Shown here: positions 2,980-32,775 of the stretch, piece by piece
Layout of the letters: every line of letters starts with the position of its first letter
Numbering within the stretch: position 1 is the stretch's first letter
From: Methylobacter tundripaludum
Lineage (GTDB): Bacteria > Pseudomonadota > Gammaproteobacteria > Methylococcales > Methylomonadaceae
Direction: 5' to 3'
Assembly: GCF_002934365.1 (NCBI RefSeq)
Contig: NZ_PTIY01000002.1
Location: 62,001 to 126,000, forward strand
Length of the DNA: 64,000 nucleotides
The notes under the pieces: model-generated
What the model saw: the letters and a program-made list of their open reading frames with translations, nothing else
What the model was told of the DNA's origin: nothing
Databases searched by the model: none
Made by a program: the position numbers and the translations under genes

Positions 2980-2991
2980 TGTTGCTAGTCC

Positions 2992-5264: not shown

Positions 5265-5278
5265 GTCCGGTCTCCGCT

Positions 5279-10223: not shown

Positions 10224-10375
10224 GATTCCCTTGCCGGCGCAAAAACCAGCTTTCGCCGAAAGTGGCACAGTCTGTCCGATGCCCGAGCAATACGCGAACA
10301 TAGCACTGCTAAGGCCGGGAGACAGGATTGAAAAACAGGAGATTTCATGGGTATTTTTTCCTTTTAGATGGTAGA

Positions 10376-10524: not shown

Positions 10525-12621
10525 TCAGAATTCGACCTTGGCTGCGAGCTTTAGCGAAATCGGCGCGCCGACCCCCAGCAAGCCGTTACCCGCGGTACTC
10601 CAGTAATTATTGTTGGTCGCATTGTCGAGCACCGCCTGAACCGTGGTCAGCTTGCCCGCAATGCGGGTCGCATAGCGCGCGCCTAACGACAACACCGCAT
10701 AGTCATCGACGAAAGCTTGGTTTTCACTATTGACCGGGCGCTTGCCGACGTAATGCACCCCGCTGCTGAGCGCCAGTCCCGGCACGCTTTGCAGGCGATA
10801 CTCGGCGAACAGGCTGGCGGTTTGCTCCGGCGTGTTATCGGGCGTCTTGCCGAAGGTTGCCGTATTGGCGGCGTTCAGCTGCTTGGCATTCATGAACATG
10901 GCCGACCCGATCAGCGACAGTTGCGGGGTCACTTCGCCGGAGGCCGACAATTCCACGCCCCTGTACTGCGCCATGCCGTTCAGCACAAAGCGGTTGGCCG
11001 AGTCTACCGTGGTCGATGCGCGCTTGATGTCGAAATACGCCGCCTGCAGCAATATCCCTTTTCCAAGCTCCGCCTTCACGCCGGCTTCCTTCTGCTCCGA
11101 CACAGCCGGGGCCAATATCTCGCCATTATTGGCGCGGTTGGCCGGCGCTTGCCCGCTTTCCTCGACCCCTTCGATGTAACTGCCGTAGATAGATACGTTG
11201 GTAAGAGGCTTATACGTCAGCGCCAGCGACGGATTGATAGTGTCCGCCTTAAAACGCGAGGTAGCTCCGACGCTCTCATAGTTGCTGCCGCGCACTCCCA
11301 GCATGGCTTGCCATTTCTCGCCAAGCAAAACGCGGTCGGATAAATACGCGCCCAGGTCCGTTATTTTCGATGAATTTGAAGTGAATGGGGCGGTCGGAGA
11401 TCGTTGTGGGATGTCAACCGGGTTGTACAGGTTTTGCGTCACGTCGAACGTGGAGGAGGAGCGGGGATCCTGACTGCGCTCATTGCCGGTAACGCCCAGC
11501 GACACTTCATGCGTGATCCACTCGCCCGGGAAGCGGCCGAACACTTCGCCGCGAATATTCTCGTTATTCCACTCCGCTCCACGCTGGAAGAAAGTGCGCA
11601 GGGTGCCTTGGCCGGTGGCGAGATTATAGTTTTGGAATTGCGAGAAATTACGGTCGCGCAGGACTTCCGCTTTACCGGCTTCGACTAACAACGCCCAATC
11701 GTCATTGATCGCATAATCGGCGCGCAGCAGCAGATTAGTGGCTTCGGCGTCGTATTTCTGCCATTCGCTGGCGAGATTGCGGGTCGCGTCCGGTACGCCG
11801 GGCAAGGTGATAACGCCGTTGACTGCCGCAGGCACCTGGATTCCCGCCTGCTCGGAGACTTCTTTGCGGTAATGTTCAATATCGAATTTCAGCGAAAGTT
11901 TATCGTTGACCAGCCAGTCAAAAGCGCCCGAAGTCAGCGCACGGTAGCCGGAAAAATTGTCGATGCCGATGTCCTCGCGGCCACCGAGCAGGTTGACGCG
12001 CGCGCCGAATTGCTGCCGGTCGCCAAAGCGCCTGGCCGCATCAATGTGTCCATTTGTCCCGCCATATTGGTTGGCCTGCACCGACACATTGGTAATTGGA
12101 TTCTTGCCGGCGCGTTTGGTGACCATGTTGACGATACCGGAGGGCGGCACAAAGCCGTAATAAAGCGACGAAGCGCCTTTGAGCACTTCGACGCGTTCCT
12201 TGTTCTCCAACGGAATGTCGATCAGATTGATGACCGGCAATGATCCGTTCAGCCGGTAATTGCTGCGATTTTCCACCAGAATGCCGCGAATCGAAATATT
12301 GTCGTAAGTCGAACCGTTCAATTGCGCGCGGGTAACGCCGGCCGTGTTACGCAAGGCGCCGAACAGGGTGCTCGCCGCTTGGGCATCGAGCACCTCCCGG
12401 GTGACCACGTTGCTGGTCTGCGGAACGTCGAGCGGCGCCATGTCGCGGAATGTGCCGACCTGAACGACATTGGACTTGAAGCTCTTGCTTTGCTCGGCGG
12501 CCACATTCACGGTGGAAAGCTGCGTGGCCGGTTCGGCCTTGTCTAGGCTCTCGGCGTTGGCCTGGGGAAGCAAAAACGCCAGCGTAAGACCGCTTGCCAA
12601 GGTGGGTAAATTAAATTGCAT
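10525..12621 (-). CDS. TonB-dependent siderophore receptor linked to sbn operon
   Basis: 698 aa from the ATG at 12621, preferred because AGAGG lies 8 nt upstream and a signal peptide (about 1-23, ending PQANAES) then starts properly. The plug contains DVPQTSNVVTREVLDAQ, SIRGI, KERVEVLKGASSLYYG and SGIVNMVTKR. The barrel ends in LAAKVEF with the terminal Phe expected for Bam recognition. The gene starts 75 nt after the sbnI-like gene on the same strand, which makes it the obvious uptake receptor for the staphyloferrin B-like product, comparable in role to AleB of Cupriavidus (analogy, not sequence proof). Confidence 0.92.
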   Translation of the reverse strand: MQFNLPTLASGLTLAFLLPQANAESLDKAEPATQLSTVNVAAEQSKSFKSNVVQVGTFRDMAPLDVPQTSNVVTREVLDAQAASTLFGALRNTAGVTRAQLNGSTYDNISIRGILVENRSNYRLNGSLPVINLIDIPLENKERVEVLKGASSLYYGFVPPSGIVNMVTKRAGKNPITNVSVQANQYGGTNGHIDAARRFGDRQQFGARVNLLGGREDIGIDNFSGYRALTSGAFDWLVNDKLSLKFDIEHYRKEVSEQAGIQVPAAVNGVITLPGVPDATRNLASEWQKYDAEATNLLLRADYAINDDWALLVEAGKAEVLRDRNFSQFQNYNLATGQGTLRTFFQRGAEWNNENIRGEVFGRFPGEWITHEVSLGVTGNERSQDPRSSSTFDVTQNLYNPVDIPQRSPTAPFTSNSSKITDLGAYLSDRVLLGEKWQAMLGVRGSNYESVGATSRFKADTINPSLALTYKPLTNVSIYGSYIEGVEESGQAPANRANNGEILAPAVSEQKEAGVKAELGKGILLQAAYFDIKRASTTVDSANRFVLNGMAQYRGVELSASGEVTPQLSLIGSAMFMNAKQLNAANTATFGKTPDNTPEQTASLFAEYRLQSVPGLALSSGVHYVGKRPVNSENQAFVDDYAVLSLGARYATRIAGKLTTVQAVLDNATNNNYWSTAGNGLLGVGAPISLKLAAKVEF

Positions 12622-12696
12622 GGAGGATACCTCTTTAGGTTGATGTGTATGAAAAATAAGATGCTTATGCAAAGTACGCAGCCGGTGACGGCGCGG

Positions 12697-13215
12697 CTAG
12701 GGAGGGTTGCCCGGCCGGGTGGCAAAGCCGGACGGTATCCACCGTTCGGCGGACTTCCTGATCATTTTTGCCGCATGCCGGTCAACGGATCGCACTGCGG
12801 ACGAGGGAAGTGGTGCGCCCCGGTCTTGCAGCAGCCATAATGAAATGTTGCAGACGGGTAGCGGCGACGGAAACCGATGGCGGGTCGTTTTGGGTGGGTA
12901 TAAGTCTCCGGTCCGGGCGCGGCGCACGATCTCCTGGGGGGTAACGATATAGCCCTGCCGCGTGGCGATGACCTCCACCTGCTCGTAGTCGAGGAGCAGG
13001 CACGGAACATGGCTCAGCTTGAGCCGCCGCGCCGCCTCGAAGCGGTGATGGCCGTCCATGACGGCCAAACTGTTGCGTTCGAGCGTAATCGGAATGCGCC
13101 AGAGCTGCTCGCGCATGATCGTATCGGCCAAGGCCGCGGCATGTTCGGGATGGTGGCGTTCGTTCGGGCGAATAAGGTCTATGCGCACAAAATGGATGGG
13201 AAGAGAACAAAGCAT
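12697..13215 (-). CDS. sbnI: SbnI-like ParB/Srx-fold protein (putative free serine kinase)
   Basis: 172 aa. The ParB-like core spans about residues 6-110. It includes the VMDGHHRFEAARRLKL motif, and GDLYPPKTTRHRFP, typical of the SbnI/SerK branch, which phosphorylates free L-serine to O-phosphoserine. In staphyloferrin B synthesis this feeds SbnA; in Staphylococcus SbnI also senses haem and regulates the operon. Here the protein is about 80 residues shorter than staphylococcal SbnI, and its tail after residue 115 looks low-complexity. AAGGA precedes the ATG, 2 nt after the sbnH-like stop, so it belongs to the operon. Confidence 0.8.
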   Translation of the reverse strand: MLCSLPIHFVRIDLIRPNERHHPEHAAALADTIMREQLWRIPITLERNSLAVMDGHHRFEAARRLKLSHVPCLLLDYEQVEVIATRQGYIVTPQEIVRRARTGDLYPPKTTRHRFPSPLPVCNISLWLLQDRGAPLPSSAVRSVDRHAAKMIRKSAERWIPSGFATRPGNPP

Positions 13216-13217
13216 GG

Positions 13218-14414
13218 TCAGATCCTTTCTATACAGTTGTCTAGGTACACCCGGTCCGGGTGCGGGTGACTCAGGAAGTCGTGATGGGAAATGTGCCAGC
13301 CGTAGGCGCCGGCCAGCAAGAAAGCGACACAGTCGCCCGCGCGCAGGTCATCGACGTGGGCGTCGCGCGCCAGGACGTCCTTGGGCGTGCAGAGTTCGCC
13401 GCACAGCGTGATTTGGGCGTGGTGTACGCCTGGACGCGAAAACGGGTAAGGCCAAGCGTCGCGCGGCAGGATCACGAACGGATGATTGTGTTGCCAAGAC
13501 ACCGGTAAGCGGAAATGGTGCGATCCGCCGCGCAAAATGGCGAAGTGTTTGCCGTAGTTACTTTTCACGTCGGTGACTTCGGCCAGGTAATAACCGCAGT
13601 CGGCGGTGAGGAAGCGGCCGCATTCGAAGATAATGCCGAAGCCGGGTTGACGCGCGGCGATCAGCGCCGATAGTCCGGCGCAGAAGCCTTCCCAATCGAA
13701 TTGCGCGAGCGGCTCGGCGTAGTTCACGCCGATGCCGCCGCCGACATTGAGCCAATCGAACGCCAGCCCATAGCGGCGCTGCCAAGCTTCCGCCAGATCG
13801 AAGTAGTGTTCGAGCAGGGCAAGATGGGTCAGTGCATCCAAATTGTTGGAGATGGCATGGATATGCAGGCCTTTCAGGCGCACGCCCGGTAGGCTTAGCG
13901 CCAATTCAATCAGCGCCGGTATCCGCGCCTCTTCGATACCGAATTGACTGGCTTGTCCGCCCATGCGCAACGTGGCTTGCTGCGGCACATACGCCGGATT
14001 GACCCGCAGCAGGATGTTCGCCACTTGGTTGCGCTGGCGCGCGATCCAATCGAGACGCCGCAACTGGTGTTCGCTTTCCACATGGATCAGTGTGACCCTG
14101 TGCTCAAGAGCGCCTTCCAGTTCGGCATCGGTCTTGCCGGGACCGCCGAATATAACCGGCACGGCGCTGTCGACGGCGCGCACGCGCTGGATTTCACCCA
14201 GCGAGGCTACTTCAAAGCCGTCGCTACGCTGTAACAGCGACTCCAGGATCGGCGCGTCGCTGTTGGCCTTGATGGCGTAGAACAGCTTGCATTGCGAAGG
14301 CAGGTTACGGCGTAGCGTGTCGACGCGCCGGCGCAAATGCGCCAAATCGTACAGATAGGCGCACACCGGCTCCGTTTGGCCTTCCAGGTAATTATGTAAC
14401 TGTTGCAGGTTCAT
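13218..14414 (-). CDS. sbnH: SbnH-like PLP-dependent decarboxylase
   Basis: 398 aa starting at the ATG at 14414, which overlaps the aldolase gene by 4 nt; staphylococcal SbnH is about the same length. It is a fold-type III decarboxylase (DapDC/ODC group). The PLP lysine is in YAIKANSD (about residue 45). A glycine-rich phosphate site lies in LNVGGGIGVNY, followed by ECGRFLTADCGYYLAEV and the C-terminal active-site motif GELCTPKDVL. In the staphyloferrin B pathway the enzyme decarboxylates the citryl-diaminopropionate intermediate to give the diaminoethane unit. Position between the sbnG-like and sbnI-like genes supports this role. Confidence 0.88.
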   Translation of the reverse strand: MNLQQLHNYLEGQTEPVCAYLYDLAHLRRRVDTLRRNLPSQCKLFYAIKANSDAPILESLLQRSDGFEVASLGEIQRVRAVDSAVPVIFGGPGKTDAELEGALEHRVTLIHVESEHQLRRLDWIARQRNQVANILLRVNPAYVPQQATLRMGGQASQFGIEEARIPALIELALSLPGVRLKGLHIHAISNNLDALTHLALLEHYFDLAEAWQRRYGLAFDWLNVGGGIGVNYAEPLAQFDWEGFCAGLSALIAARQPGFGIIFECGRFLTADCGYYLAEVTDVKSNYGKHFAILRGGSHHFRLPVSWQHNHPFVILPRDAWPYPFSRPGVHHAQITLCGELCTPKDVLARDAHVDDLRAGDCVAFLLAGAYGWHISHHDFLSHPHPDRVYLDNCIERI

Positions 14415-15172
14415 TGCTCGATGTCCTTTAGTTGATGTTGGGTCAGATGGGCGGCCATAGCGCGGCGGGCGATACCGCGATCGTCGCCCAGGATGAACAT
14501 GCGGACTTGGTTTCGGCGCCAGGCTTGAAAATCCTCCGGCGCGCGCGGCAGGGCGCAGAAGGTTTTGCCGTGCTGTAAAGCTGCCGCGTGTATGCGCGAC
14601 ACCGCCGCACAGATGTCCGGGTGGCGGGTCTGCCAAGGCAGTCCGAGCGACTGCGAGAGGTCGGCCGCGCCTTCCAGCAGCACGTCGATTCCGTCCACCG
14701 CAGCGATGGCGTTGGCTTGTTCGACGCCTTCACGGTCTTCGATCATTGCCACTACCAGGGTGTGCTCGCGCTCAGTTGACATGGCAGCGGCCAAGTCGTC
14801 GCGGCCGTAGCCGTTGCGCCAGGTGGCGTTCAGACTACGGTCGCCGCGCGGGGAAAAATGACAAAGCCGCACCGCATCCAGAGCGGCTTGCGCCGAGCGG
14901 ATGCGTGGAAACACGATGCCTTCGGCCCCGGCGTCCAGCGCCTGCAACGCTTGATGCGGAGCCGCCACCCGGACCAGCGCGGCTATGCCGCCGGCGCGTG
15001 CCGCCAACAACATGCCGGCAAGTTGTTCGGGGCCAATCAGCGTGTGTTCCAGGTCGATCACCGCGAAGTCGTAACCGGCCGCGGCGATAAGCTCGACGGA
15101 GAGTGCGGCCGGCGTCGAGCAAAACAGCCCGTATAGCGGCTCGTTCAGTTGCAAGCGGGCTTTCAGGCGCAT
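14411..15172 (-). CDS. sbnG: SbnG-like HpcH/HpaI aldolase-family citrate synthase
   Basis: 253 aa from the ATG at 15172; a GTG one codon earlier is an alternative, and both overlap the sbnF-like stop. HpcH/HpaI fold. The motif VIDLEHTLIGPE near residue 40 supplies active-site residues. Others are FPRIRSAQAA and MIEDREGVEQANAIAAVDGID, with the metal-binding Glu and a following Asp region. In staphylococci SbnG condenses oxaloacetate and acetyl-CoA to make citrate for the siderophore, freeing synthesis from the TCA cycle. The operon context makes that the best assignment, although other aldolases of the family look alike. Confidence 0.88.
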   Translation of the reverse strand: MRLKARLQLNEPLYGLFCSTPAALSVELIAAAGYDFAVIDLEHTLIGPEQLAGMLLAARAGGIAALVRVAAPHQALQALDAGAEGIVFPRIRSAQAALDAVRLCHFSPRGDRSLNATWRNGYGRDDLAAAMSTEREHTLVVAMIEDREGVEQANAIAAVDGIDVLLEGAADLSQSLGLPWQTRHPDICAAVSRIHAAALQHGKTFCALPRAPEDFQAWRRNQVRMFILGDDRGIARRAMAAHLTQHQLKDIEQ

Positions 15173-16929
15173 CACAGCTTGCCCTGTTGCGCCAGTGGGT
15201 TTGGCGCAAGCCGCGTGCGCAAACGGATTTCCTGCCGGAATCGGCGGCTGGCGAGCAGTTCAATCGAGACCTGATCGGCAAAGCAGTCGAATAACGCATA
15301 ACGCGCCGCCAGCCGCGGATGACGCTGTTGATGAGCGCGAAGCACCTCGCGGGTGATCTGCCAGAACCGCGCCCCGGCCATATCGTAGAAGCGCTGGAAC
15401 AACCAGGCCAGTTCGGCCAGGTTGACGAAGAACAGCGCATCGAAAGTAAAATCGCGCAGCTCGTCGGCGTCGGCGGTTTCCAGAAAAGAGTTAGGATTGA
15501 CGCGTGCATGCTCGGCGGGCGGCGCTGTCAACACCGGCGCGGGACCGGACAGTAGCGCCTTGCTGAAGCGCACGCCGTCGTGAAAGTCCTTGAGCGCCAC
15601 GCGCGCCGGGAATCCGTCTTCGTGCAGCAGGATCATGTTTTGCGCATGCGATTCCAGCGCCGTGCCGTGTTCCCACAGCAGATGCAATACCGGCAACCAA
15701 GCTCGCTCGATCAGCCGCTTTAACCACGCTTCGGAGCCGTAGCGCTTTACCCACGGGTCGATAAAGGGCCGTCCATCGGCGTCCACATGCATCAAGGCCG
15801 TCATCGGAAGCGCGGCTTCACCCGGCTGCAAATGGTTATGCACGCTTTCGCGCCAGATGCAGGCCAATGCCCCGTACTGTCCGTGCGCCGGAGCCTTAGA
15901 GCTGAAACTTACGCCGGCCACTTCGCGCAACAGCACCGGCCGCGCCATCGGTTCAGCCCAGTCGGTGCGCTCCACCAGCGCGTGCAGCCAGTCGCTGATG
16001 ACAGGGGCGTTTTGCACGGTATGGGGCGCCAGCACGCGCGACGTGGAAGTATTGACTAGGTTCATCGCCAGCTTGAGCGACAGGCGGCCGGGGTCGCTCA
16101 GGTTGCTCAGGGTGCGGATCGATTGTTGCGGCAGGTAATGATCCGCTAGCGGCCCGATCGGCAGCAATTCGCCGCGCGCCATCGCCTGATGGTAGCCGGG
16201 CAGGATCACTTCGTCCCATTGCCAGGGATGAACCGGCAGCGGCAGATAGTCTTCGGCCTGCAATCCGCGCCGAGTCAGCTCATCGGAAAAACGCTGCACG
16301 TCCGCTTCGCCCAGTAATGGCTGGTTCAGCGTAGCGCTGACGGCCCAACGGCTGCAATCGCGGCGCACCGCCAACAGCAACGGCGTCACAGTCGGCGAGA
16401 ACTCCGGCGCATAGGCGCGGTTGTCGGACAACGTGAAGCCGAGGCGCGATTTATAGCTCGGATGGTACGGGTGGCTATCGGTCAGCCGGGCCTCCACCGT
16501 ATCGTAATCGGCACCGCGCAATGCCTGATAGCCGCGCGCATGCAGGGTTTGGGCATCCTTGATCTGGGTCGCCGTTAGTTCTGCCGCGAACCGGCTGAGC
16601 AGGATTGGGTCGGCGCCCAGCCATGGCGCGATTTCCGCCAGGAACAGCGCGGGATCGGTCGCGTCTTCGCTAACGCCGTCAGCCTCGCGCAGCAGCGGCT
16701 CAGTGATGCGTATGCGACCGAAACTGAAAGTATGTTGCGCACGGCACCGGTAGCTGACCGGCGCGTGGTCGGCACTGAGGGCGGGCACAATCAGAGTTTC
16801 GCCCTGCCACTCGTAGTGCGGTAACGCGTCTTCGAACAGCAAGGCTTCCAGCAGTTGGCGCAGCACGCGGCGGCTGGCCTGCCGGTAAAAGGGACTGTCG
16901 AGCAGGTTTTGATAATCGTAGGGTTGCAT
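15172..16929 (-). CDS. sbnF: IucA/IucC-family NIS synthetase, SbnF-like
   Basis: 585 aa from the ATG at 16929, 4 nt after the sbnE-like stop, with AAAGG upstream; a longer frame runs back into the neighbour and is rejected. NIS-synthetase motifs: PVHPWQWDEVI (about residue 228), QQSIRTLSN, LKLAMNLVNTSTSRVL, ESHAQNMIL and LKDFHDGVRFS. These ATP-dependent enzymes join carboxylates to amines or alcohols. By gene order it matches SbnF, which adds the second diaminopropionate to the citryl intermediate. The C-terminal domain resembles the FhuF-like IucA/IucC tail. Confidence 0.9.
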   Translation of the reverse strand: MQPYDYQNLLDSPFYRQASRRVLRQLLEALLFEDALPHYEWQGETLIVPALSADHAPVSYRCRAQHTFSFGRIRITEPLLREADGVSEDATDPALFLAEIAPWLGADPILLSRFAAELTATQIKDAQTLHARGYQALRGADYDTVEARLTDSHPYHPSYKSRLGFTLSDNRAYAPEFSPTVTPLLLAVRRDCSRWAVSATLNQPLLGEADVQRFSDELTRRGLQAEDYLPLPVHPWQWDEVILPGYHQAMARGELLPIGPLADHYLPQQSIRTLSNLSDPGRLSLKLAMNLVNTSTSRVLAPHTVQNAPVISDWLHALVERTDWAEPMARPVLLREVAGVSFSSKAPAHGQYGALACIWRESVHNHLQPGEAALPMTALMHVDADGRPFIDPWVKRYGSEAWLKRLIERAWLPVLHLLWEHGTALESHAQNMILLHEDGFPARVALKDFHDGVRFSKALLSGPAPVLTAPPAEHARVNPNSFLETADADELRDFTFDALFFVNLAELAWLFQRFYDMAGARFWQITREVLRAHQQRHPRLAARYALFDCFADQVSIELLASRRFRQEIRLRTRLAPNPLAQQGKL

Positions 16930-16933
16930 GGAG

Positions 16934-18664
16934 TTACCTTTGAGATAGCATGGGGTTGGGGATTTCGACCCAGACCGGACGTTCGCCGTGTTGATGGAAA
17001 CTGCTGAGCATGTTGGCTTTTGCCGGCAGCGTAGGTTGGTTGAGTAATGTCTGTGCCAGCGGGTTGCCGGTCGCATTAAGGTTATCCGCGGTGTCCCGCC
17101 ACAGCGCGGCCTCCGTGGTCAGTCCGGTGCGCGCCAGACAGGCAATGGCATGGCCTATGTGATTGACCAGCACGTAATACTGGAAGCGATGCCATGCTTG
17201 CTCTTCCTCGTACAGCGCGGGACTGTCGGGGTTCAGCCGGTCGAGGAACGGAAAACGCGCGCGGCTGATGCTGGCGCCTTCCATATCGCGCGCATAGCCG
17301 CGCACCGGCCAGCCGCCCAGGAAAGCCACCATGGTGTTTTGCAGATGGGCTTCCAGGCTGATGCCGTAATCGGAAAATAGCCGAAGCAACGGCAGCAGCG
17401 TGACGTCGAGGTAGCGGGCCCACCACGACCTAACCAGCGCCTCGTCGGGCGCTTGTATCCCGGCTGCTTGCCGAAGCAAGGCCAGCAATGGGATTTCCCC
17501 GTCAGCCGGTTCCTCCAGCACCGACGCAAGCACCTGAACGTGTTCGGCTTCCTCAAGCGGCATCGCTTGCCGGTACACCACTGCGCAAGCGGCGCGTAGT
17601 GCGTCGCTCGACAGCTTCAAGGTCCGGCTTCCCAATTCCGGAAGAATGCGGAACACGGATTGTTCGAGTACCTGCCGTGGCAGAAAAGACAGCGCGAGGC
17701 TGGCGTCCAGCGCCCGCTCGACCTGCTCGGGCGGGTTATTGCGGATGAAATTGGTGATGCGGATATCGAGCGATAGCTTGAGGAACAGACTTTGGCCGGG
17801 CAGCCACACCGTGCGAACCGAAGACGTGGGCCAAGCCACTTCTCCCAACGGACCCAACGAGATCAGCGAACGGCTTTTTACCAGTGCATCGATTCCAGGC
17901 AGGCCCAGTAAATAATTAGCTTGCCAGGGATGGCACGGCAACAGCCGATAATCGCCATCGGCCAACAAGTTTTCGGCTAAGCGGGCCGCCTCAGGATCGA
18001 CCGGCAAGCAGTCTCCGCCCAGGACGCGCTCGTCGAGCAGTCCGTCGGCTACCGCGAAGTAATGCAGGCGGAACGAGGCTCCCAGCTCGGGCGCGTAGCG
18101 CTGCATGTCTTCTTCGCTAAAGCCTTCCGAGGCTTTGGAGGTCACATGGAAAATGTGGCCGAAACGCAAGCCTTGCTCGGCTGCCAGAAAAGACGAGCGC
18201 AGCCCATCAGGCTTATATCGGTGGAAGCGATGCACCTTATCGATACTGTTGTACATCAGTGTCTTCAGGCGGTCGCGACAGTGATCCGCGGCATCGGCAG
18301 GATGATTGCCGGTCGCAGCGAGCGTGTCGACGATCAGATCGACCAGGGGCTTTACGTCGTCGGTTAGGGGGCTCCAGTCGCCATTCAGTCCGATCCAGGC
18401 GAAAGGCGACACGCGGTGGTAGCCGATCGGCGAGAAATAGCTTAGCGCCCCGACCAGCTGATACCCGGTTTGGGCAAACGACACCCGATAAGGCATCAGC
18501 CCTGCGGCTCGCCAGGCTTCAATCGGCGCATGCAATTCGACCGGTCCCGGTTCGGCAGGCGCAAGGCGAGGGTCGAAACAAGCGGTTTCCCGGCAATAAG
18601 TATTGAGGTACTGTTCCACCAGACGCCGCTCTATTGCGGCAAGTTGCGGTAGGTGTGGTGACAT
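16934..18664 (-). CDS. sbnE: IucA/IucC-family NIS synthetase, SbnE-like
   Basis: 576 aa, nearly the same length as SbnE. Motifs: GYHRVSPFAW near residue 78, FGHIFHVTSK with SKASEGF, LLPCHPWQANYLL, PTSSVRTVWL, FLKLSLDIRITNFIRN, EAHLQNTMV and RDMEGASIS. The pattern is the type A, citrate-activating clade. In the known pathway SbnE makes the first amide between citrate and L-diaminopropionate. It lies between the MFS exporter (13-nt gap) and the second synthetase. Assignment to E and not C or F rests on order and motif style. Confidence 0.9.
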   Translation of the reverse strand: MSPHLPQLAAIERRLVEQYLNTYCRETACFDPRLAPAEPGPVELHAPIEAWRAAGLMPYRVSFAQTGYQLVGALSYFSPIGYHRVSPFAWIGLNGDWSPLTDDVKPLVDLIVDTLAATGNHPADAADHCRDRLKTLMYNSIDKVHRFHRYKPDGLRSSFLAAEQGLRFGHIFHVTSKASEGFSEEDMQRYAPELGASFRLHYFAVADGLLDERVLGGDCLPVDPEAARLAENLLADGDYRLLPCHPWQANYLLGLPGIDALVKSRSLISLGPLGEVAWPTSSVRTVWLPGQSLFLKLSLDIRITNFIRNNPPEQVERALDASLALSFLPRQVLEQSVFRILPELGSRTLKLSSDALRAACAVVYRQAMPLEEAEHVQVLASVLEEPADGEIPLLALLRQAAGIQAPDEALVRSWWARYLDVTLLPLLRLFSDYGISLEAHLQNTMVAFLGGWPVRGYARDMEGASISRARFPFLDRLNPDSPALYEEEQAWHRFQYYVLVNHIGHAIACLARTGLTTEAALWRDTADNLNATGNPLAQTLLNQPTLPAKANMLSSFHQHGERPVWVEIPNPMLSQR

Positions 18665-18677
18665 CTGAATTTTTCCT

Positions 18678-19883
18678 TTAATTTTGTTTACAGGGAGTTA
18701 AAGCGGCATGTCGGCCGCTATGAACCAGCAATCCGGCGGCCAGGAACAACGCCGCCACCGGCCAAACGAGGTTGACTTGGTCGAGGCGCGGCATCAGAAC
18801 CATGATCAGCAGCGGGCCCAGCAGTTGGCCGACGACCATGAAACTCCTGCTTAAGCCTGTCACATGCCCATAGGCCGAGGCAGGCAGTTGACGGCTACAG
18901 GCCAGCAGCATCGACTGCGCCAGCGCTGCATAACACGCGCCCTGAACCATCCGCAGCAGGGCGACGAGCCAGATTTGGTCGGCCACAGTCAGTAATCCGA
19001 TCGACAAGGCGCAGCCAACGGCGGCCAGCGTAAAATGGCGTCGCGGTTCGCCGCGGTCGTTGAGACGGCCCCACAGCGGACCGGCCAGCATGGCGGCGAG
19101 CCAGCCCAGCGCGTGCAGCAGCCCGATCTTGCCGGCAGTGGCGTCGGCAGCGGGGAAATGAGCCGTCACGTAAAGCGCAAAGACATTGACCAGCGCGAAC
19201 GCGGCGGCCTGAATCAAACAGGCGGCGAGCATCCATTTGCGCAAATCGGCGTCGGCGAGTACGGTGCGCAGTCCGGCGAACTGCGGAACATCGGGAACGG
19301 GCTTTGTTTTTGGCGGTTCGCTGAGCCGGCTCCACAGCAGCCCGCCGATGATGCCGGTCAGCAGCGCGCTGGTTGTCAGCAGCGGCTTGAGCGACCAATA
19401 GTCCAGCATGATGCCGCCAAGGATCGGCCCCGCCAGCGAACCGCAGGCGATGGCGCTTTCCTGCAAGCCCAGCGAGCGCCCGCGCGATGCGTCGTCGCTG
19501 ACGTAACCGATGAAGGCGGTCAGCACCACGCCGATGGTGCTGATGCCTTGCAGCAAGCGGCCCAGCATGAAACCGTAAACATTCGGACTCAAGGCCATCA
19601 GCAGCATGCTGACAATAAACACGGTCAGCGACACTAGCAGCATGCGGCGATAACCGAAGCGGTCGCACCATTGACCGGCGTAGGGGGCGGAGCACAACAC
19701 GCCCAAGGCCGGCGCGGCCAAGGCGAGACTGCTCCAGCGCGCCGCGCCGACCGAGTCCGGCTGCGTCAGCGTCGCCACGTACAGCGGCATGATCGGCACC
19801 AGCACCATCATGCCGAGCGTGGTCACGGCCTGACAGCTCAGCAGCAGCGCAAGGTTGCGGGAACCCGACAGCACGGCGCTCAT
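18678..19883 (-). CDS. sbnD: MFS siderophore exporter, SbnD-like
   Basis: 401 aa with 12 predicted membrane helices. The MFS motif A is in loop 2-3 (GQWCDRFGYRRML, about residue 65-77). A second, related motif is in loop 8-9 (GRLNDRGEPRRHF). Its ATG overlaps the sbnC-like stop by 4 nt. SbnD exports staphyloferrin B in Staphylococcus. Because exporters of this class also secrete other siderophores, the substrate is assigned from its place in the operon. Confidence 0.88.
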   Translation of the reverse strand: MSAVLSGSRNLALLLSCQAVTTLGMMVLVPIMPLYVATLTQPDSVGAARWSSLALAAPALGVLCSAPYAGQWCDRFGYRRMLLVSLTVFIVSMLLMALSPNVYGFMLGRLLQGISTIGVVLTAFIGYVSDDASRGRSLGLQESAIACGSLAGPILGGIMLDYWSLKPLLTTSALLTGIIGGLLWSRLSEPPKTKPVPDVPQFAGLRTVLADADLRKWMLAACLIQAAAFALVNVFALYVTAHFPAADATAGKIGLLHALGWLAAMLAGPLWGRLNDRGEPRRHFTLAAVGCALSIGLLTVADQIWLVALLRMVQGACYAALAQSMLLACSRQLPASAYGHVTGLSRSFMVVGQLLGPLLIMVLMPRLDQVNLVWPVAALFLAAGLLVHSGRHAALTPCKQN

Positions 19884-21646
19884 TCATTACGCTCCACGGT
19901 CAGCAAGGGATTGATCAATCGCCCCATCGCGCTGGGCATGCCGGTGCCGAAGCTCGGGCGGCCGAGCAGCGGTGCGAGCACCTGCTTGAATGGCCAATCG
20001 GCTTCGTCCAGCAGCAGAGTCTTGGTCTGAGCGGCGATTTCATCCGGTAGCGGCACGCATGCCAGGCAGTCTTCCAGCACCGTGCGGACGATATGCCAGC
20101 CATGCGCTTCTTCGCGGCCGTAGCGTTCGGCCAGCGCGGCGAGAATGGCGTACAGGTTGACTTCGATGGCCAAGGTTTGCAGATAGGCCAGCAGTTCGCG
20201 CGGACTGTCCGGTTCCAGCGTATTGGGCGTGCCGCGGTCGATGACGTAAGCGGGCGCTGTTACGCCTTGGGCCTGCATCAGCGGCCGGCAGATGCGCAAG
20301 GTGTCGTGGTCGCGCAGCACCAGCGCGGCGATACGCTTCCCCTGGAAAGCCAACAGCACGTTCTGTCCGTGCAGCTCCGGCATCACGCCTTGCGCGAAAC
20401 AGCGCAGGCCCAACTCCAGCAAAGCGCGGGCGATGTCGGAGAACAGCATCCAAGCCTCTTGTTCATGCGCCGCGCAGCCCAGCAGATGATCGAATGCAGG
20501 CAGTGCGCCATCAGCGCTTGTCATCGGCAGCGCCGCCATCGGAATCAGCCGGGTTCCCGGCAGCGCCGGATATCTGCGGATCAGGCAGGCCAGCTCGCCA
20601 GGATCGGCTTCGAGTGCGTCATGCTGCCGCAGCGCCCACCATTGATTCTCGTCGCACAGCAGCAGGTTCGACGCCAGCCAGGCGTCCTTCCGGCGCAGGC
20701 TTTCCAGACAGGCTCCGGCGAGTACGGCATTGTGCAGGTAGCGCGGCGGCAGGGTGCGGATAGCGCCGAGTGCGTTGATAGAGAGCGACACTTTAAGATG
20801 CATGCCGGAATTTCCGGCGATAGCAAGCGAGCGTAGCGAAGCGGTCGGGATCGCCGATCCCGGCCCCGGTCCCAAGTCGATATGTGCCGCCGTTGCCGAC
20901 AGCTCGTCCCAATCAAACCGCGCCCATTGCCACGGGTGAACCGGCAACCATAGCCAGGCATCGCCATCGGCGCCGTGAGCGTGGGCGGTCGAGCTCAATG
21001 TGTCCCGCTCGATACGGTCGAGCAGGAGTTCTGCAAGGGGCTGGCCGGTCATGGCGCTGCCTCGTAGGTTGTCCCGCAATAAGGCCACCCAGTGCAGCGG
21101 GACTGATGTCATGGTTTCCGGCGAATAGGCTGTGCCGTCGCTTCCGTCCCAGTCCTTGGCGCGGGCCAACGGATGGAACGGCCGGTCTTTCAGGCAACTT
21201 AGCGCTTCCCAGGACAGCAGGTCGTCCGGTGCCGCTGTCAGTTTGGCGACGATGCTGTGTTCATGCTCAGCCGAGAACGCGGCCTGGACGTAGGCAAGCC
21301 GGAAAAAGCGGGAAAAGCGGCCGCTCCGGTCGAGCCACCAGTCGGCCGATTGCAAGGCCTCGACGCTTTGGACGGCATTCAAGTCTGTCGGGTGCGTAGC
21401 GCCATGCAAGACGACGGGCCGATCCGAAACCCGGAACGGGCGCAATCCGGCGGCCCGGCGGCCGCTCCAGTGCAGCGAGCGCAATTCGTCGAGCGCAACT
21501 TTCAGCACCGTTTCGCCATTGGAAGCCGAATCGAACACACAGTGTTTGCGAAAGCCGTAAAGATCTTCCAGCCAGAGTGCGTCGAACAGGTCTTGAGTTA
21601 AACGCCGCGCATAGGGATGAGTTGTGATGGACTGCATAGGCTTCAA
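19880..21646 (-). CDS. sbnC: IucA/IucC-family NIS synthetase, SbnC-like
   Basis: 588 aa, close to SbnC. Motifs: PVHPWQWARFDW (about residue 235), PTASLRSLAI, LKVSLSINALGAIRTL, ELHGQNVLL and VLRDHDTLRIC. SbnC performs the last condensation, joining alpha-ketoglutarate to the citrate-diaminopropionate core. The ATG overlaps the sbnB-like stop by four bases. The Thr and Arg of the ATP site (LR and IRT segments) look intact, so the enzyme is expected to be active. Confidence 0.9.
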   Translation of the reverse strand: MKPMQSITTHPYARRLTQDLFDALWLEDLYGFRKHCVFDSASNGETVLKVALDELRSLHWSGRRAAGLRPFRVSDRPVVLHGATHPTDLNAVQSVEALQSADWWLDRSGRFSRFFRLAYVQAAFSAEHEHSIVAKLTAAPDDLLSWEALSCLKDRPFHPLARAKDWDGSDGTAYSPETMTSVPLHWVALLRDNLRGSAMTGQPLAELLLDRIERDTLSSTAHAHGADGDAWLWLPVHPWQWARFDWDELSATAAHIDLGPGPGSAIPTASLRSLAIAGNSGMHLKVSLSINALGAIRTLPPRYLHNAVLAGACLESLRRKDAWLASNLLLCDENQWWALRQHDALEADPGELACLIRRYPALPGTRLIPMAALPMTSADGALPAFDHLLGCAAHEQEAWMLFSDIARALLELGLRCFAQGVMPELHGQNVLLAFQGKRIAALVLRDHDTLRICRPLMQAQGVTAPAYVIDRGTPNTLEPDSPRELLAYLQTLAIEVNLYAILAALAERYGREEAHGWHIVRTVLEDCLACVPLPDEIAAQTKTLLLDEADWPFKQVLAPLLGRPSFGTGMPSAMGRLINPLLTVERNE

Positions 21647-22668
21647 CCGTATAACGGCAGTTGCGTGCCGATTCCGCGCTCGCGCGCCAGATGATAGAAA
21701 TGCCGTGCGCAGACGATGTCGTCGAGCGCCATGCCCATCGGGTTGAGCAGAATAATCTCCCGATCGTTTTCCCGGCCCGGCTTGTCGCCGACGACGATTT
21801 CACCTAATTCGGCATGCAGGTGTTCGCGGCTGAAACGCCCTTCCAGCACCAGCTGGTTGATGATTTTTTTCTCGCGGTTGGATTGCTCCCAATCGTCAAC
21901 CACCACCTTGTCGGCTAGTTCGTAGACTTCCTTATGCACGTCCATGATCGATACATTACTGACGAAAGCGCCGGGCTTGAGCCAGTCGTAGCGCAAGTAA
22001 GGCGCGTCGGCTACCGTGCAGGTAACGATCACGTCGGCGGCGCGCACCGCGGCTTCCGCCGAGCCGGCCTTAACGAAGGCGATACGCGGGAAACGCCCGG
22101 CCAGTTCGGCAATGAAAGCGTCGGCGGCAGCGGACGACAAGTCGAACAGATGCAAACGTTCGATCGACGGGAACTGCTCCAGCAATGTTTGCATCTGCAT
22201 GCGCGCAATCGGGCCGCAACCGATACCGGCGACGTCAGTGAATCCACCGCGCGCCAGATGACGCGCGGCGACGGCGGTGATGGCGGCGGTGCGCATGCCG
22301 CTGATCAGTCCGCCTTCCATGATCGCAATCGGATAGTTGGTTTGCGCGTCGTTCAGCAGCACTACCGCGCTGGCGCGCTCCAAGCCGAACCGGGCAGGGT
22401 TGTGCTGGCGGCTGCCGATCCATTTGAGTCCGGCGATTGCCTGTTCGCCGCCCAGGTAACAAGGCATCGCGATTATGCGGTCGGCGATATGGTCGGCGCC
22501 CGGCCAGCGCAGGTAGGGTTTGAGCGGCTGCACATAATCGCGGCGCACGTGCGCCGTAAGCCCGTCGATGATTGCGTCGACATAGGGCTGTGAATGGCCG
22601 CCGCCTAATTCGATCAAGTCGTTGCGGCTGAGATAAAGTAAATCCGGTGAGTTGGTTGGTGTAGTCAT
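21643..22668 (-). CDS. sbnB: SbnB-like dehydrogenase (ornithine cyclodeaminase family)
   Basis: 341 aa from the ATG at 22668, which overlaps the sbnA-like stop by 4 nt; an upstream in-frame start would overlap that gene by 67 nt. The NAD-binding Rossmann glycine motif is GIGCGPIARMQ (about residue 147). The substrate-side motifs are AGLKWIGSRQHNP and GGLISGMRTAA, typical of the ornithine cyclodeaminase/mu-crystallin fold. SbnB oxidatively cleaves N-(1-amino-1-carboxyl-2-ethyl)-glutamate into L-2,3-diaminopropionate and alpha-ketoglutarate, both used in staphyloferrin B. Confidence 0.9.
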   Translation of the reverse strand: MTTPTNSPDLLYLSRNDLIELGGGHSQPYVDAIIDGLTAHVRRDYVQPLKPYLRWPGADHIADRIIAMPCYLGGEQAIAGLKWIGSRQHNPARFGLERASAVVLLNDAQTNYPIAIMEGGLISGMRTAAITAVAARHLARGGFTDVAGIGCGPIARMQMQTLLEQFPSIERLHLFDLSSAAADAFIAELAGRFPRIAFVKAGSAEAAVRAADVIVTCTVADAPYLRYDWLKPGAFVSNVSIMDVHKEVYELADKVVVDDWEQSNREKKIINQLVLEGRFSREHLHAELGEIVVGDKPGRENDREIILLNPMGMALDDIVCARHFYHLARERGIGTQLPLYG

Positions 22669-23654
22669 GCTATTTGTCCAAGTAAGTGTGATGTGCGGTC
22701 CAGATGCCGATCTTTCATGCGCGACAGCCATTCGTCGTCATAGACGGAATCCAGGTAGCGCTCGCCCCGGTCGGGTAGGACGGTCAGGATGCGTGCGCCG
22801 CGCGGCGCTTGCGAGGAGAGACGCTGAATGGCTGCGATAACCGAGCCGGACGAGCCCCCGGCGAAAATGCCTTCGTGCTTGACCAGCTCCCGGCAAGCGA
22901 CGGCCGACTCATAGTCGTCGATATGAATGGCCTGATCGATCTCGCCGCGCTGCAACAGCTCCGGTACGCGGCTGGCGCCGATTCCGGGCAGTTCGCGCGG
23001 AGACGGCGGGGTGCCGAACAGCACCGAACCGACGGCATCCACCGCCACAACCTTCAGATCCGGCCATGCTTCCCGCAGCCGCCGGGAGATGCCATGTACG
23101 GTGCCGGATGTACTGACGCCCAGCACCAGATAATCCACCGGCCCATCCAGAGATTTCAGGATCTCTTCGCCCTCGCCGTGATAGTGGCTTTGCCAGTTAC
23201 GTTTGTTGGCATACTGGTTGATCCATACTGCATCCGGCTGCTCGCGCAACAGGTGTTTTACACGCTCGATACGGGTTTCCAGATAGCCGTTTTGGCTGTC
23301 TTTCTCGGTCACCAGTTCGATATCGCCGCCGTAGCATCGAATGATCTTTAAATTGATCGGCGATATTTTCGGATCGACCACCGCCGTAAAACGCAAGCCG
23401 TGGATACGGCAAGCCATCGCCAAGGCAATGGCGAGATTGCCCGACGAGCTTTCGACGATATGCGAATCCGGCTGAATAGTGCCGTCGGCCAGACCGCGTT
23501 CGATGATGTAGCGCGCCGGCCTGTCCTTGACGCTGCCGCCGGGATTGAGCATTTCCAGCTTGGCGAGAACCTCGCATGGCGAATTGCGAAACAAACGCGA
23601 CAGGCGGACGATAGGCGTTTCCCCGATGCCGTTAAGAATGCTGTGCAGGATCAT
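22665..23654 (-). CDS. sbnA: SbnA-like PLP synthase (cysteine synthase family)
   Basis: 329 aa (SbnA is about 326). Beta-family PLP enzyme with the PLP lysine in NPGGSVKDR (about residue 43), the SSGN substrate loop in ESSSGNLAIA, and a phosphate-binding loop GVSTSGTVHG in place of the GTGGT of true cysteine synthases. SbnA joins O-phosphoserine and glutamate to form the precursor that SbnB cleaves. Its start overlaps an upstream 130-aa gene by 4 nt. A plain O-acetylserine sulfhydrylase is less likely given the neighbours. Confidence 0.9.
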   Translation of the reverse strand: MILHSILNGIGETPIVRLSRLFRNSPCEVLAKLEMLNPGGSVKDRPARYIIERGLADGTIQPDSHIVESSSGNLAIALAMACRIHGLRFTAVVDPKISPINLKIIRCYGGDIELVTEKDSQNGYLETRIERVKHLLREQPDAVWINQYANKRNWQSHYHGEGEEILKSLDGPVDYLVLGVSTSGTVHGISRRLREAWPDLKVVAVDAVGSVLFGTPPSPRELPGIGASRVPELLQRGEIDQAIHIDDYESAVACRELVKHEGIFAGGSSGSVIAAIQRLSSQAPRGARILTVLPDRGERYLDSVYDDEWLSRMKDRHLDRTSHLLGQIA

Positions 23655-24043
23655 TGGGCCGCCTCGCTACGCAATGCATTGAGGCCGGGCGCGCCGATGT
23701 GGAAATGGAGGATGTCGAACCGGTGTAGCTTGCGTGTAGCCGCCGCTTCCGGCTGCTTACGGAAGAAGTCAGCCTCATCAGGCGATAAGCGCCGCGTTAA
23801 TGCGCGATAATCTCGTGCGCTAATAGCGGCCGGAATATCGTTAACGGCGGCTTCGCTACGGAGTAGCTCCGCCGCATATTTATGACAGATTGATACTTGC
23901 ATTGCGGTAAAAGTACCTGCGCTTTTCGCTTTCATAGCAGAACGCGGCCGCGGAGTAATCTCCGCAGCTTTGGAATAGAGTGCGTCCGTTAATGTAGCGA
24001 TGGTTAGCGGCAGTACTTGATGTTGGTAATAGCGCATAAACAT
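23651..24043 (-). CDS. Unrecognised 130-aa protein heading the sbn operon
   Basis: No family recognised. It is a soluble, probably helical protein, rich in Ala and Arg, with one Cys and a C-terminal HRFDILHFHIG stretch. GAGGAAA lies upstream; either Met1 (24043) or Met3 (24037) could be the start. The stop overlaps the sbnA-like ATG by four bases, so translation is coupled to siderophore synthesis. It has no counterpart in the staphylococcal sbn operon. The leader hairpin motif at 24070-24103 lies 26 nt upstream. A regulatory or accessory role is possible but unsupported. Confidence 0.65.
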   Translation of the reverse strand: MFMRYYQHQVLPLTIATLTDALYSKAAEITPRPRSAMKAKSAGTFTAMQVSICHKYAAELLRSEAAVNDIPAAISARDYRALTRRLSPDEADFFRKQPEAAATRKLHRFDILHFHIGAPGLNALRSEAAQ

Positions 24044-24069
24044 TTTCCTCGTTGAGGTTGGTTTGTTTC

Positions 24070-24103
24070 TGGCTGGCTACTCACACCCAAGTGATGGCTG
24101 GCT
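24070..24103 (-). promoter_or_regulatory. Leader hairpin motif, copy c (sbn operon)
   Basis: Transcribed strand: AGCCAGCCA, then UCAC-UUGGGU-GUGA, then TAGCCAGCCA. The motif ends 26 nt before the first gene of the sbn operon. It has the shortest hairpin of the set, yet both flanking repeats are exact. Confidence 0.6.
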
Positions 24104-24114
24104 AAATGTGGGGC

Positions 24115-24138
24115 GGCTTATGCATTGCTGCATAAGCC
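24115..24138. repeat. Perfect 10-bp dyad in sbn leader
   Basis: GGCTTATGCA, a TTGC loop, then TGCATAAGCC. It lies just upstream of leader motif c in the sbn operon 5' region. It could be an operator or a transcript hairpin; there is no T run for classical termination. Confidence 0.5.
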
Positions 24139-24282
24139 TGATTTACAGATTTATTCTCGCTTCAAGGCGATTAAGTAAAAAACAACAGCCGGATAGATAG
24201 ACTAAGCCCAATGAATACGACCGATTAAGACAGGGCATCAGTTTGCTGAAAATACTGCGTTAGCCCGGTCCGTCAATAATGC

Positions 24283-24371: not shown

Positions 24372-24849
24372 TTATATATCTATTTGAACGCTGAGCATCA
24401 CTGAGCGCCCCGGTCCCGGCATTCGGCCCAGGCTGATACCCACGCCGCGGAAGTAGTCGTCCTGATTGAACAGGTTGTTGCCGGCAAGACCGATCCGCAG
24501 GTTGGCCTTGTGACGCGGAAGACCTTGGTGATTTGCGTGTTCCACAGCCAATAGCCCGGTATTTTGCCTCTGTCGCCAATGGCGTTTTCCAGCACGGTGT
24601 TGGCGGCATCGGTATAGGCGGAACTCAGGTAAGAACCGTTTTTTCCAGGGTGGTTTTATGGTCAGCTTGATGTTTTTCCTTGTGGTACTTCTTTTCGCTC
24701 TCTGCTTCTTCCGTATCGGATACGGCAGCGGTGCGCGCATCGCTTTTTATATCGGCGGCATCCGCCAAACTCGCTATAGGTACTGCGGCAAGCATCAGCA
24801 GCAATGTCGCTCTGGTATGCGGTTGCCTGTATTGGAATGATTGTTTCAT
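24372..24849 (-). pseudogene. Internally deleted TonB-dependent receptor (FecA-like C-terminus)
   Basis: Bases 24849-24625 encode a receptor-like N-terminus: a signal peptide beginning MKQSFQYR and ending near SLADAADI, resembling the N-terminus of the 5279-7477 receptor (MKHPFQRR, ending near TLADTAAS). A different frame then gives a receptor C-terminus (SYLSSAYTDAANTVLENA, KIPGYWLWNTQITKVF). After another frameshift it gives NNLFNQDDYFRGVG and GRMPGPGRSVMLSVQIDI with a stop. About 500-550 residues of plug and barrel are missing. It is downstream of exbD and retains the leader motif at 24878. The upstream region also resembles that of the 5279-7477 receptor. A functional product is very unlikely. 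Confidence 0.85.
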
Positions 24850-24948: not shown

Positions 24949-25377
24949 CTATTCCTTTGATTTTGGTTCGGTCACAAAGCCGAGCTTTTCTATTCCCACT
25001 GTTTGCGCGGCGGACATCACCATGGCTAATTGCTGATAATTTGTGGCTTTGTCAGCGCGCAAATGCAATTCGGGCTGCGGCTTTTTCTGCGCCGCCGTCT
25101 CCAATCGCAACGCAAGTTCTTCTTGTTCAAATAGCGCATCGTTCCAAAACAGTTTGCCTTCCGCATCAATCGACAGGGTGACGGTGTCGGGTTTTTCCGG
25201 GTTGGCTTGGCTGCCCGCTTGCGGCAGGTCGATTTTGATCGAGTGGGTCAGCAAGGGGGCGGTAATGATGAAAATCACCAACAGCACCAGCATGACATCC
25301 ACCATCGGCGTCGTATTGATTTCCGCCATCGGTTGGGTATGACGGTTATCGCCGCCGAAGCCGCCTGAACCGATCAT
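24949..25377 (-). CDS. exbD: ExbD, TonB-complex energy transducer
   Basis: 142 aa. One N-terminal helix carries the essential Asp (NTTPMVDVMLVLLVIFIITAP, Asp near residue 27), followed by a periplasmic domain. This is the ExbD/TolR family; with ExbB it couples the proton gradient to TonB to power outer-membrane receptors. The start overlaps the exbB stop by 4 nt. ExbD and not TolR is supported by the adjoining tonB. Confidence 0.93.
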   Translation of the reverse strand: MIGSGGFGGDNRHTQPMAEINTTPMVDVMLVLLVIFIITAPLLTHSIKIDLPQAGSQANPEKPDTVTLSIDAEGKLFWNDALFEQEELALRLETAAQKKPQPELHLRADKATNYQQLAMVMSAAQTVGIEKLGFVTEPKSKE

Positions 25378-26210
25378 AGTGACACCTCCGCTTGAAGAGA
25401 ATTTGCTTGCGGAGCGTCTGATGAGGGCCGGGCAGGGGCGGTCTGGCTTGAATTCTCCGACGGTACCGTTTCGGTAATTTGCACGGCTGCCAGCGGTACT
25501 CCGGTGGTCAGGTAGGTATGCAGGTCGTGGGCGAACGTTTCCAATTCGCCCATTAACAGGCGGTTGTCGCGCACCAAGGTGTTATAGGCGAGAACCGCTG
25601 GGATGGCGACTGCCAGGCCGAATGCGGTCATGATCAATGCTTCACCGACCGGGCCTGCCACTTTGTCTACAGTAGCTTGGCCGCCGACGGCGATGGTGCC
25701 GAGCGCATGATAAATGCCCCAGACGGTGCCGAACAATCCGATGAAAGGGGCGATACTGCCTACCGAAGCCAATAAGGTCAGTCCTGTTTCCATCTGCATG
25801 GCTTCCTGGCCGATAGTTCGGCGTAGCGCCTGGGCAATAAATTCATCATGCCGCGAATGTTCCTGCAACGCGGTATTTTCATCATCCCTTACCCGTTGCG
25901 CGGTGTAACGTTTGTGGTGGTCGGTAGCGCTGATGCCTTGCAGCGCAAGGCGCGCAAACGGGTTTTCCGCTTTTTTCAAATCCTGGCCCATGGCCGCCGC
26001 CATTGACGTCAGGGTTGACGACGAGGCATGCCAAAATCGTGTTAAAAAAGCCGCACTGCTGTTTTTTAAACGCCGCGCCTGTATGGCTTTGATGACCATT
26101 AAAGTCCAACTTCCGATGGACATGGCCAGCAGGCCTGCCGCTACGGTAATCGATACGGCGCCGCCTTGGCTGATGAACTCCAGGTTGTCTAAGATATGTT
26201 CCGCTTGCAT
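25374..26210 (-). CDS. exbB: ExbB, proton channel of the TonB complex
   Basis: 278 aa of the MotA/TolQ/ExbB family. The first helix is near residues 20-42. The cytoplasmic segment contains the arginine-rich QALRRTIGQEAMQMETGLTLLASVGSIAPFIGLFGTVWGIYHAL signature region (about 125-170), and the last helix is near 185-205 (AFGLAVAIPAVLAYN). A Pro/Ala/Ser-rich cytoplasmic tail of about 40 residues is longer than usual. It forms an operon with tonB (6-nt gap) and exbD. Confidence 0.93.
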   Translation of the reverse strand: MQAEHILDNLEFISQGGAVSITVAAGLLAMSIGSWTLMVIKAIQARRLKNSSAAFLTRFWHASSSTLTSMAAAMGQDLKKAENPFARLALQGISATDHHKRYTAQRVRDDENTALQEHSRHDEFIAQALRRTIGQEAMQMETGLTLLASVGSIAPFIGLFGTVWGIYHALGTIAVGGQATVDKVAGPVGEALIMTAFGLAVAIPAVLAYNTLVRDNRLLMGELETFAHDLHTYLTTGVPLAAVQITETVPSENSSQTAPARPSSDAPQANSLQAEVSL

Positions 26211-26216
26211 GATGAT

Positions 26217-27507: not shown

Positions 27508-27529
27508 AATAATAATGATTATCATTTGC
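27508..27529 (-). promoter_or_regulatory. Fur box upstream of hemP remnant/tonB operon
   Basis: Contains the perfect 6-1-6 dyad AATGATTATCATT (27514-27526) inside an A/T-rich context, as in classical Fur sites. It is likely to control the tonB-exbB-exbD transcript and perhaps genes further downstream. Confidence 0.85.
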
Positions 27530-28519: not shown

Positions 28520-28696
28520 TTAAGTACGCCGGACGCCGTACCAAAGAGCGGTCACGACCGGCGCGGCAAGGGCAATCCATGACACCGCATCGCCGATGCC
28601 GTCGAACAGCAGGGCGGCGGTAAGACCACCAGTGCTGACTAAGCCCAGCAAGACCGGCATCGCCCATATTTGTATCCCGGTTAGTGATGTTTTCAT
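28520..28696 (-). CDS. Small two-helix membrane protein
   Basis: 58 aa from the ATG at 28696, overlapping the PepSY stop by four bases. Two membrane helices (about 8-30 and 34-53) with almost no soluble part. No family recognised. Coupling to the PepSY reductase gene suggests that it is an accessory subunit in the inner membrane. Confidence 0.7.
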   Translation of the reverse strand: MKTSLTGIQIWAMPVLLGLVSTGGLTAALLFDGIGDAVSWIALAAPVVTALWYGVRRT

Positions 28697-29841: not shown

Positions 29842-29887
29842 AAGCGTTACCGCGAAAACGTCGGCGCGCGATATAAAATCCCGCCGC

Positions 29888-32287: not shown

Positions 32288-32558
32288 GTTTTGTTGCTCA
32301 TTGTCAGTGTGGGAGTTGCAGAGGTTGTTAGCTGTCGATGCTTCGACGGGCTCAGCACGAACGGCTTTCACAGCCTCCAACTGTGGTTTCAGGTTTATTA
32401 AAACAAGGCGCTGCGAGTGCTTACGACGGGTGCTGATTCCAAAAAATGTTATTTATATTTACCATGAAGACCATGAAGGACTTGAAGAGACTACTGCATT
32501 GACTTCATGCGTGATATTGAGACGACTCATAAAACATTCGGCCCTGAATTCCAGCCCT

Positions 32559-32697: not shown

Positions 32698-32775
32698 AAC
32701 TACTTCCCTTCATTATCTTTATGTCCTTCATGGTAATAAAAACAAGTTATAAACATTGTGCTGCGTCAGCACCCC

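Follow-up and report, generated by a model that had tools for sequence, protein, structure and literature searches.

The siderophore staphyloferrin B is made in Staphylococcus aureus by the products of the sbnABCDEFGHI operon, in which SbnI acts as a serine kinase and also as a regulator that responds to heme (PMC7139808). The pathway, the order of its operon and its occurrence outside Staphylococcus, including in a gammaproteobacterium, are already published (PMC3179956, PMC2864759, PMC9301485). Shewanella denitrificans OS217 (sden_0590/sden_0589) is listed as a predicted producer in Table 4 of a study from 2011 (PMC3179956), and a staphyloferrin B-like cluster of Methylobacterium aquaticum 22A is required for growth at low iron and was shown to solubilise lanthanum oxide (PMC9301485). 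Here we describe a stretch of 64,000 nucleotides (the window) from Methylobacter tundripaludum (assembly GCF_002934365.1, contig NZ_PTIY01000002.1, positions 62,001 to 126,000), which carries the nine sbn families at 12697-23654 of the minus strand, directly followed by a TonB-dependent receptor gene. We think it highly probable that the nine genes form a complete operon for staphyloferrin B, betaproteobacterial in type, which a Methylobacter-like methanotroph gained in a single block together with its own receptor. The literature searched contained no report of staphyloferrin B from Nitrosospira or from methanotrophs of the Gammaproteobacteria. The new details are the compact form of SbnI, the presence of different siderophore cassettes beside tonB-exbB-exbD, and a congener that keeps only the receptor.

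The nine families follow one another in the staphylococcal order, as the initial annotation had claimed; inspection of the open reading frames (ORFs) and family scans found them colinear and intact, with no internal stops. The pair for L-2,3-diaminopropionate (L-Dap) is present, and both members exceed their NCBIfam equivalog cut-offs: sbnA (22665-23654), the pyridoxal phosphate (PLP)-dependent synthase of the first step, scores 446.7 bits with TIGR03945 (cut-off 349.95) and has SbnA (5d84, E=8e-125) as top PDB match, and sbnB (21643-22668), the NAD-dependent dehydrogenase leading to L-Dap and 2-oxoglutarate, scores 405.2 bits with TIGR03944 (cut-off 326.9; top match 4m54/4mp3, E=5e-131). Three nonribosomal peptide synthetase-independent siderophore (NIS) synthetases are orthologous, by position and gene trees, to SbnC, SbnE and SbnF. 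The gene sbnC (19880-21646; TTG start, with an ATG three codons further in also possible) matches NF033583 over its full length and clusters with other sbnC genes in its tree; sbnE (16934-18664) contains PF04183 and PF06276 and is 70% identical to the Collimonas and Nitrosospira proteins; sbnF (15172-16929) matches NF033586 over its full length and starts at MQPYDYQ, the longer ORF to 17076 overlapping sbnE. The bit scores of SbnC (316.7) and SbnF (484.6) fall below the cut-offs of 700 and 900; we did not take this as failed membership, because both models are of the 'exception' type, with cut-offs set for staphylococcal proteins. The exporter gene sbnD (18678-19883; PF07690, major facilitator superfamily, MFS) encodes a protein 74-76% identical to SbnD of Nitrosospira and Collimonas, at the equivalent operon position. 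The set is completed by sbnG (14411-15175, GTG start; PF03328), a citrate synthase of HpcH/HpaI fold with top match 4tv5 (E=9e-64), by sbnH (13218-14414), a PLP-dependent decarboxylase of citryl-Dap with top match 6knh (E=2e-122), and by a compact sbnI (12697-13215), predicted to encode a free serine kinase of ParB/SerK fold (NF053625 SerK match). The top PDB matches of SbnA, SbnB, SbnG and SbnH are thus the solved staphylococcal pathway enzymes, 4mp3, 4tv5 and 6knh being SbnB, SbnG and SbnH in a table of PMC7139808. Overlaps of 4 nt, described initially as the rule, occur at five of the eight junctions (A/B, B/C, C/D, F/G and G/H), whereas D/E, E/F and H/I have gaps of 13, 4 and 2 nt. Since the same gene order recurs in unrelated genomes, chance is excluded for the arrangement.

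The receptor gene (10525-12672, minus strand; TIGR01783, 297.5 bits) was correctly said to come directly after the operon: it begins 24 nt downstream of sbnI with a TTG start, or 75 nt with a signal-peptide-like ATG at 12621 (MQFNLPTLASGLTLAFLLPQANA), which is the probable true start. Homologous receptors lie directly downstream of the operons of Nitrosospira (77% identity) and of a partial Nitrosomonas metagenome-assembled genome (MAG; 72%), and the ligand is likely to be Fe-staphyloferrin B.

The transfer of a whole unit, proposed in the initial annotation, is borne out by concordant trees, composition and a patchy distribution. From the phylogeny of nine genes suggested there, trees were built for sbnA to sbnH, the operons of Ralstonia, Cupriavidus metallidurans and Shewanella denitrificans being outside them; no gene falls in an unrelated clade, and in all eight trees the window groups with Collimonas, Herbaspirillum, Nitrosospira and Burkholderia. 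Its exact sister differs among the single-gene trees, often with weak support, and the concatenated tree pairs it with Nitrosospira, nested in the betaproteobacterial group with 100% bootstraps. The closest SbnF proteins in a scan of named genomes belong to Collimonas (74%), Nitrosospira multiformis (70%), Herbaspirillum (68%) and Burkholderia (59%); the identity is 76% for the Nitrosomonas MAG and 37% for S. agnetis. A transfer from Staphylococcus or another Gram-positive would agree with the gene order, which is that of S. agnetis, but every gene tree rejects it, as does the approximately unbiased (AU) test of a clade of the window with Staphylococcus (p=5e-40); with the sequences at hand we hold this source to be refuted, the donor line being betaproteobacterial (Collimonas/Herbaspirillum/Nitrosospira/Nitrosomonas). 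Vertical descent from a beta-/gammaproteobacterial ancestor, with losses elsewhere, can appeal to the relatedness of the two groups and to sbn remnants in two congeners. It is nevertheless very improbable, given that the AU test rejects a betaproteobacterial clade without the window (p=6e-5), that a close SbnF occurs in one of 237 family genomes, the window's own, and that the G+C content of the operon is 62%, about 10 points over that of the genome (~51%; 49-54% in genome samples). Three more family genomes (G009, G509 and G521) have SbnF matches of 41-43%, which belong to other NIS clusters. We dropped the idea of a singleton acquisition, drawn from the count of one in 237, on account of the remnants in the two congeners. 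A megablast comparison of the operon with plasmids gave zero matches, hence there is no near-identical plasmid copy. The elevated G+C and the betaproteobacterial affinity might also be expected of a contaminating contig. However, the operon contig measures 426 kb within a genome of 4.18 Mb and holds one of the two pmoA/amoA-family genes of that genome, which identifies the host as a Methylobacter-like gammaproteobacterial methanotroph and rules out a stray contig as the place of the operon; the neighbouring tonB-exbB-exbD and PepSY genes are 67-83% identical to those of Ca. Methylobacter oryzae, of the same genus, and the two congeners have their remnants at the same site, so that contamination is refuted for practical purposes. 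Taken together, the trees, the receptor synteny, the G+C content and the patchy distribution indicate transfer of the entire unit, with betaproteobacteria as its source or as intermediaries.

What the sequences show is the gene content, with its homology, order and history; the chemistry given below is taken from the pathway of S. aureus. By this analogy, the compact SbnI would convert free L-serine into O-phosphoserine, which SbnA would join with glutamate, and SbnB would oxidise the SbnA product to L-Dap and 2-oxoglutarate. SbnG would make citrate, and SbnE, SbnH, SbnF and SbnC would combine citrate, L-Dap, diaminoethane (formed by decarboxylation) and 2-oxoglutarate into staphyloferrin B, to be exported by SbnD. 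The iron complex would be taken up again by the receptor at 10525-12672, energised by TonB-ExbB-ExbD, and the PepSY protein may assist iron release. A related but different carboxylate siderophore, with another 2-oxo acid, amine or condensation order, is a rather unlikely product, although it has something in its favour: the NIS synthetases are distant from the staphylococcal ones, SbnC, SbnE and SbnF being ~30-37% identical to those of S. agnetis, and SbnC and SbnF score under the cut-offs given above. On the other side, all precursor-making genes are present in unchanged order, and two betaproteobacteria whose loci share the core order, R. solanacearum and C. metallidurans, make staphyloferrin B (PMC2864759), the likeness to them being one of published gene order, not of sequence. 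Several points weigh against a functional staphyloferrin B system with the history preferred here. In addition to the low identity of the synthetases, which would also suit a related citrate/Dap siderophore, the identity of the metabolite is inferred from the S. aureus analogy; the predicted kinase SbnI lacks ~90 central residues; the site scan found no Fur box directly upstream of sbnA; and, in the receptor-only congener described below, the deletion junctions rest on one draft assembly and codon bias could account for part of the low synonymous divergence seen in the cassette.

The genes tonB-exbB-exbD (24949-26972, minus strand) are a genus-wide anchor beside which siderophore cassettes sit. 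An exbB close to the operon-adjacent copy occurs in 14 of the 23 genus genomes. Downstream of exbD, several of these genomes have a receptor alone, one (G001) has a desferrioxamine/bisucaberin-like cluster, and Ca. M. oryzae (L082) has a different NIS cluster with its own receptor, followed by the same PepSY gene as in the window (76%); in a further genome (G011) another NIS pair lies near the exbD site. Within the genus, siderophore cassettes come and go at this site. In the congener G012 two deletions of ~7.9 and ~2.2 kb, measured against the window, have fused the start of sbnA (93% nucleotide identity) to a piece made up of the end of sbnF and the start of sbnG, and that piece to the end of sbnI; a few bases are shared at the junctions. 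Its receptor is intact (715 codons, 95% amino acid identity to the window), and no NIS synthetase was found anywhere in this genome, rated 100% complete. In G021 only the 3' part of the receptor is left. As judged from these genes, G012 is likely to be a receptor-only 'cheater', and the pattern in the two congeners fits a loss of production before uptake.

In sbnA and the receptor, the window and G012 show a synonymous divergence of 0.20-0.25, versus 0.56-0.86 in the adjacent tonB, exbB and exbD; for the pair G012 and G021 the receptor gives 0.26 and exbB 0.065. This contrast suggests that the cassette was exchanged between species after their separation, pseudogene drift being a possible alternative cause. 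The ratio of nonsynonymous to synonymous divergence (dN/dS) between the window and G012 is 0.11 for the receptor. It was rejected as proof of selection after the deletion, since the truncated sbnA fragment gives 0.07, and it mostly reflects the time before the deletion. Between the sbn remnant and exbD, G012 (L127, G012:C17 10300-15164) also has a TonB-dependent-receptor-like ORF, a small Spy/CpxP-like protein and PepSY-like ORFs, none of them in the window.

The label 'ParB/SerK-like' given initially to sbnI was right, and can now be refined to a compact version. The window protein has 172 residues versus 251 in the S. agnetis homologue, and falls short of the ~240-254 residues expected for a full-length SbnI/SerK with the central block. 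About 90 mid-protein residues of S. agnetis SbnI are missing from it and from nine alpha- and betaproteobacterial homologues (128-177 residues). Glutamate E19 aligns with the catalytic E30 of SerK, known from the mutants E30Q and E30A; it is invariant in the ten compact proteins, as is the DGHHR motif (D54-G55-H56-H57-R58), and the PPKTTRH motif is closer to archaeal SerK (PKTTRH) than that of staphylococcal SbnI is. In an AlphaFold model the core has a predicted local distance difference test (pLDDT) score >90, with SerK (5x0b) and SbnI (5uje) as best folds, followed by sulfiredoxin and ParB. We infer that the compact SbnI may have the kinase role only. The full order sbnA-I, ending in a short sbnI, is likewise found in Agrobacterium pTi, Methylocystis, a Kiloniellales MAG, Collimonas, Nitrosospira and Burkholderia. 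A compact SbnI also stands right after sbnH in two Methylobacterium genomes (L077 and L078), and the cluster of M. aquaticum 22A was reported without sbnI (PMC9301485), so that such a short gene may be easily overlooked. The Bacillus badius plasmid pPM400 (L008) has an sbn-like cluster with A, B, three NIS synthetases, H and a full-length SbnI (255 residues); without sbnG and with a different NIS order, it is a rearranged relative. The compact SbnI would define the minimal parts for serine phosphorylation. Overall, we would give about even chances to a double proposition: that the tonB-exbB-exbD site is an exchange point where whole synthesis and receptor cassettes are swapped between Methylobacter species and producers turn into receptor-only cheaters by internal deletion, and that proteobacterial sbn operons use a minimal SbnI (~130-175 residues) as a serine kinase without the central block.

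Beyond the receptor, a gene on the minus strand (8961-10301; PF03929) encodes a PepSY_TM inner-membrane protein, possibly a ferrisiderophore reductase; this is the gene shared with Ca. M. oryzae. At 775-7477 there are another TonB-dependent receptor, an ATP-binding cassette transporter (ATPase and two DUF3526 permeases) and a PepSY-like protein. A 130-codon frame at 23651-24043 overlaps sbnA by 4 nt and is open in G012 too; its upstream part (~23924-24253) is conserved beside exbD in several congeners. We rejected it as a tenth operon gene because its dN/dS is 1.46 (window versus G012) and the betaproteobacterial operons have no homologues, and it is probably not a protein gene. Between exbD and sbnA (24372-24849, minus strand), a signal-peptide-like ORF and a C-terminal end are all that is left of another TonB-dependent receptor, the trace of an earlier gene at the site; the C-terminal part is 83% identical over 46 residues to a stretch of G011 and 56% over 34 residues to a Pantoea receptor. 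Next come exbD (24949-25377; PF02472), exbB (25374-26210; PF01618) and tonB (26217-26972; PF03544). Upstream of them a Fur-box-like site (27511-27529, minus strand) has 3 mismatches to the 19-bp consensus, with 0 such sites expected in shuffles, and two congeners retain this stretch. On the other side of tonB, a second siderophore cluster (28693-39139), desferrioxamine/bisucaberin-like, comprises a PLP decarboxylase (RhbB/DesA-like), a lysine/ornithine N-monooxygenase, an MFS protein, a fused acyltransferase-NIS synthetase (830-residue ORF), a PepSY protein and an FhuA/FoxA-like receptor. The cluster of this kind in G001 (72-87% identity) lies on the other side of exbD.

With this locus, the range of a known pathway comes to include a methane-oxidising gammaproteobacterium. 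One genus offers an intact producer, a relative reduced to the receptor and another in which only a receptor fragment is left, and we think that siderophore cheating in methane-oxidising communities can thus be tested with natural strains. As the sbn siderophore solubilises lanthanides in Methylobacterium (PMC9301485), one may ask whether it has a part in lanthanide-dependent methanol oxidation here as well.

Compared with S. aureus, the window has the same nine families in the same order and direction, and the staphylococcal enzymes are the closest solved relatives of its SbnA, SbnB, SbnG and SbnH. Its proteins are, however, ~28-59% identical to those of S. agnetis, SbnI is compact, and a Gram-negative receptor with a TonB system replaces SirABC. 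The core synteny of sbnA-H and a dedicated TonB receptor are shared with R. solanacearum and C. metallidurans CH34 (Rmet_1109-1118, aleB), where aleB and fecIR are at the sbnA end (PMC2864759), whereas in the window the receptor follows sbnI and no FecIR was seen. S. denitrificans OS217 is a gammaproteobacterium like the host, the likeness being to a published prediction, not to a sequence (PMC3179956). M. aquaticum 22A is also a methylotroph, but its sbnE and sbnF are fused, in addition to the reported absence of sbnI (PMC9301485), and in the gene trees Methylobacterium sits in the alpha branch and the window in the beta branch. The nearest counterparts are Nitrosospira multiformis Nl18 (L014), with the same A-I order, 63-79% identity and the homologous receptor directly downstream, and Collimonas sp. 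OK307 (L013), with the same order and 67-84% identity, where the receptor after the operon is only 25% identical; both belong to another host class, and their flanking genes differ from those of the window.

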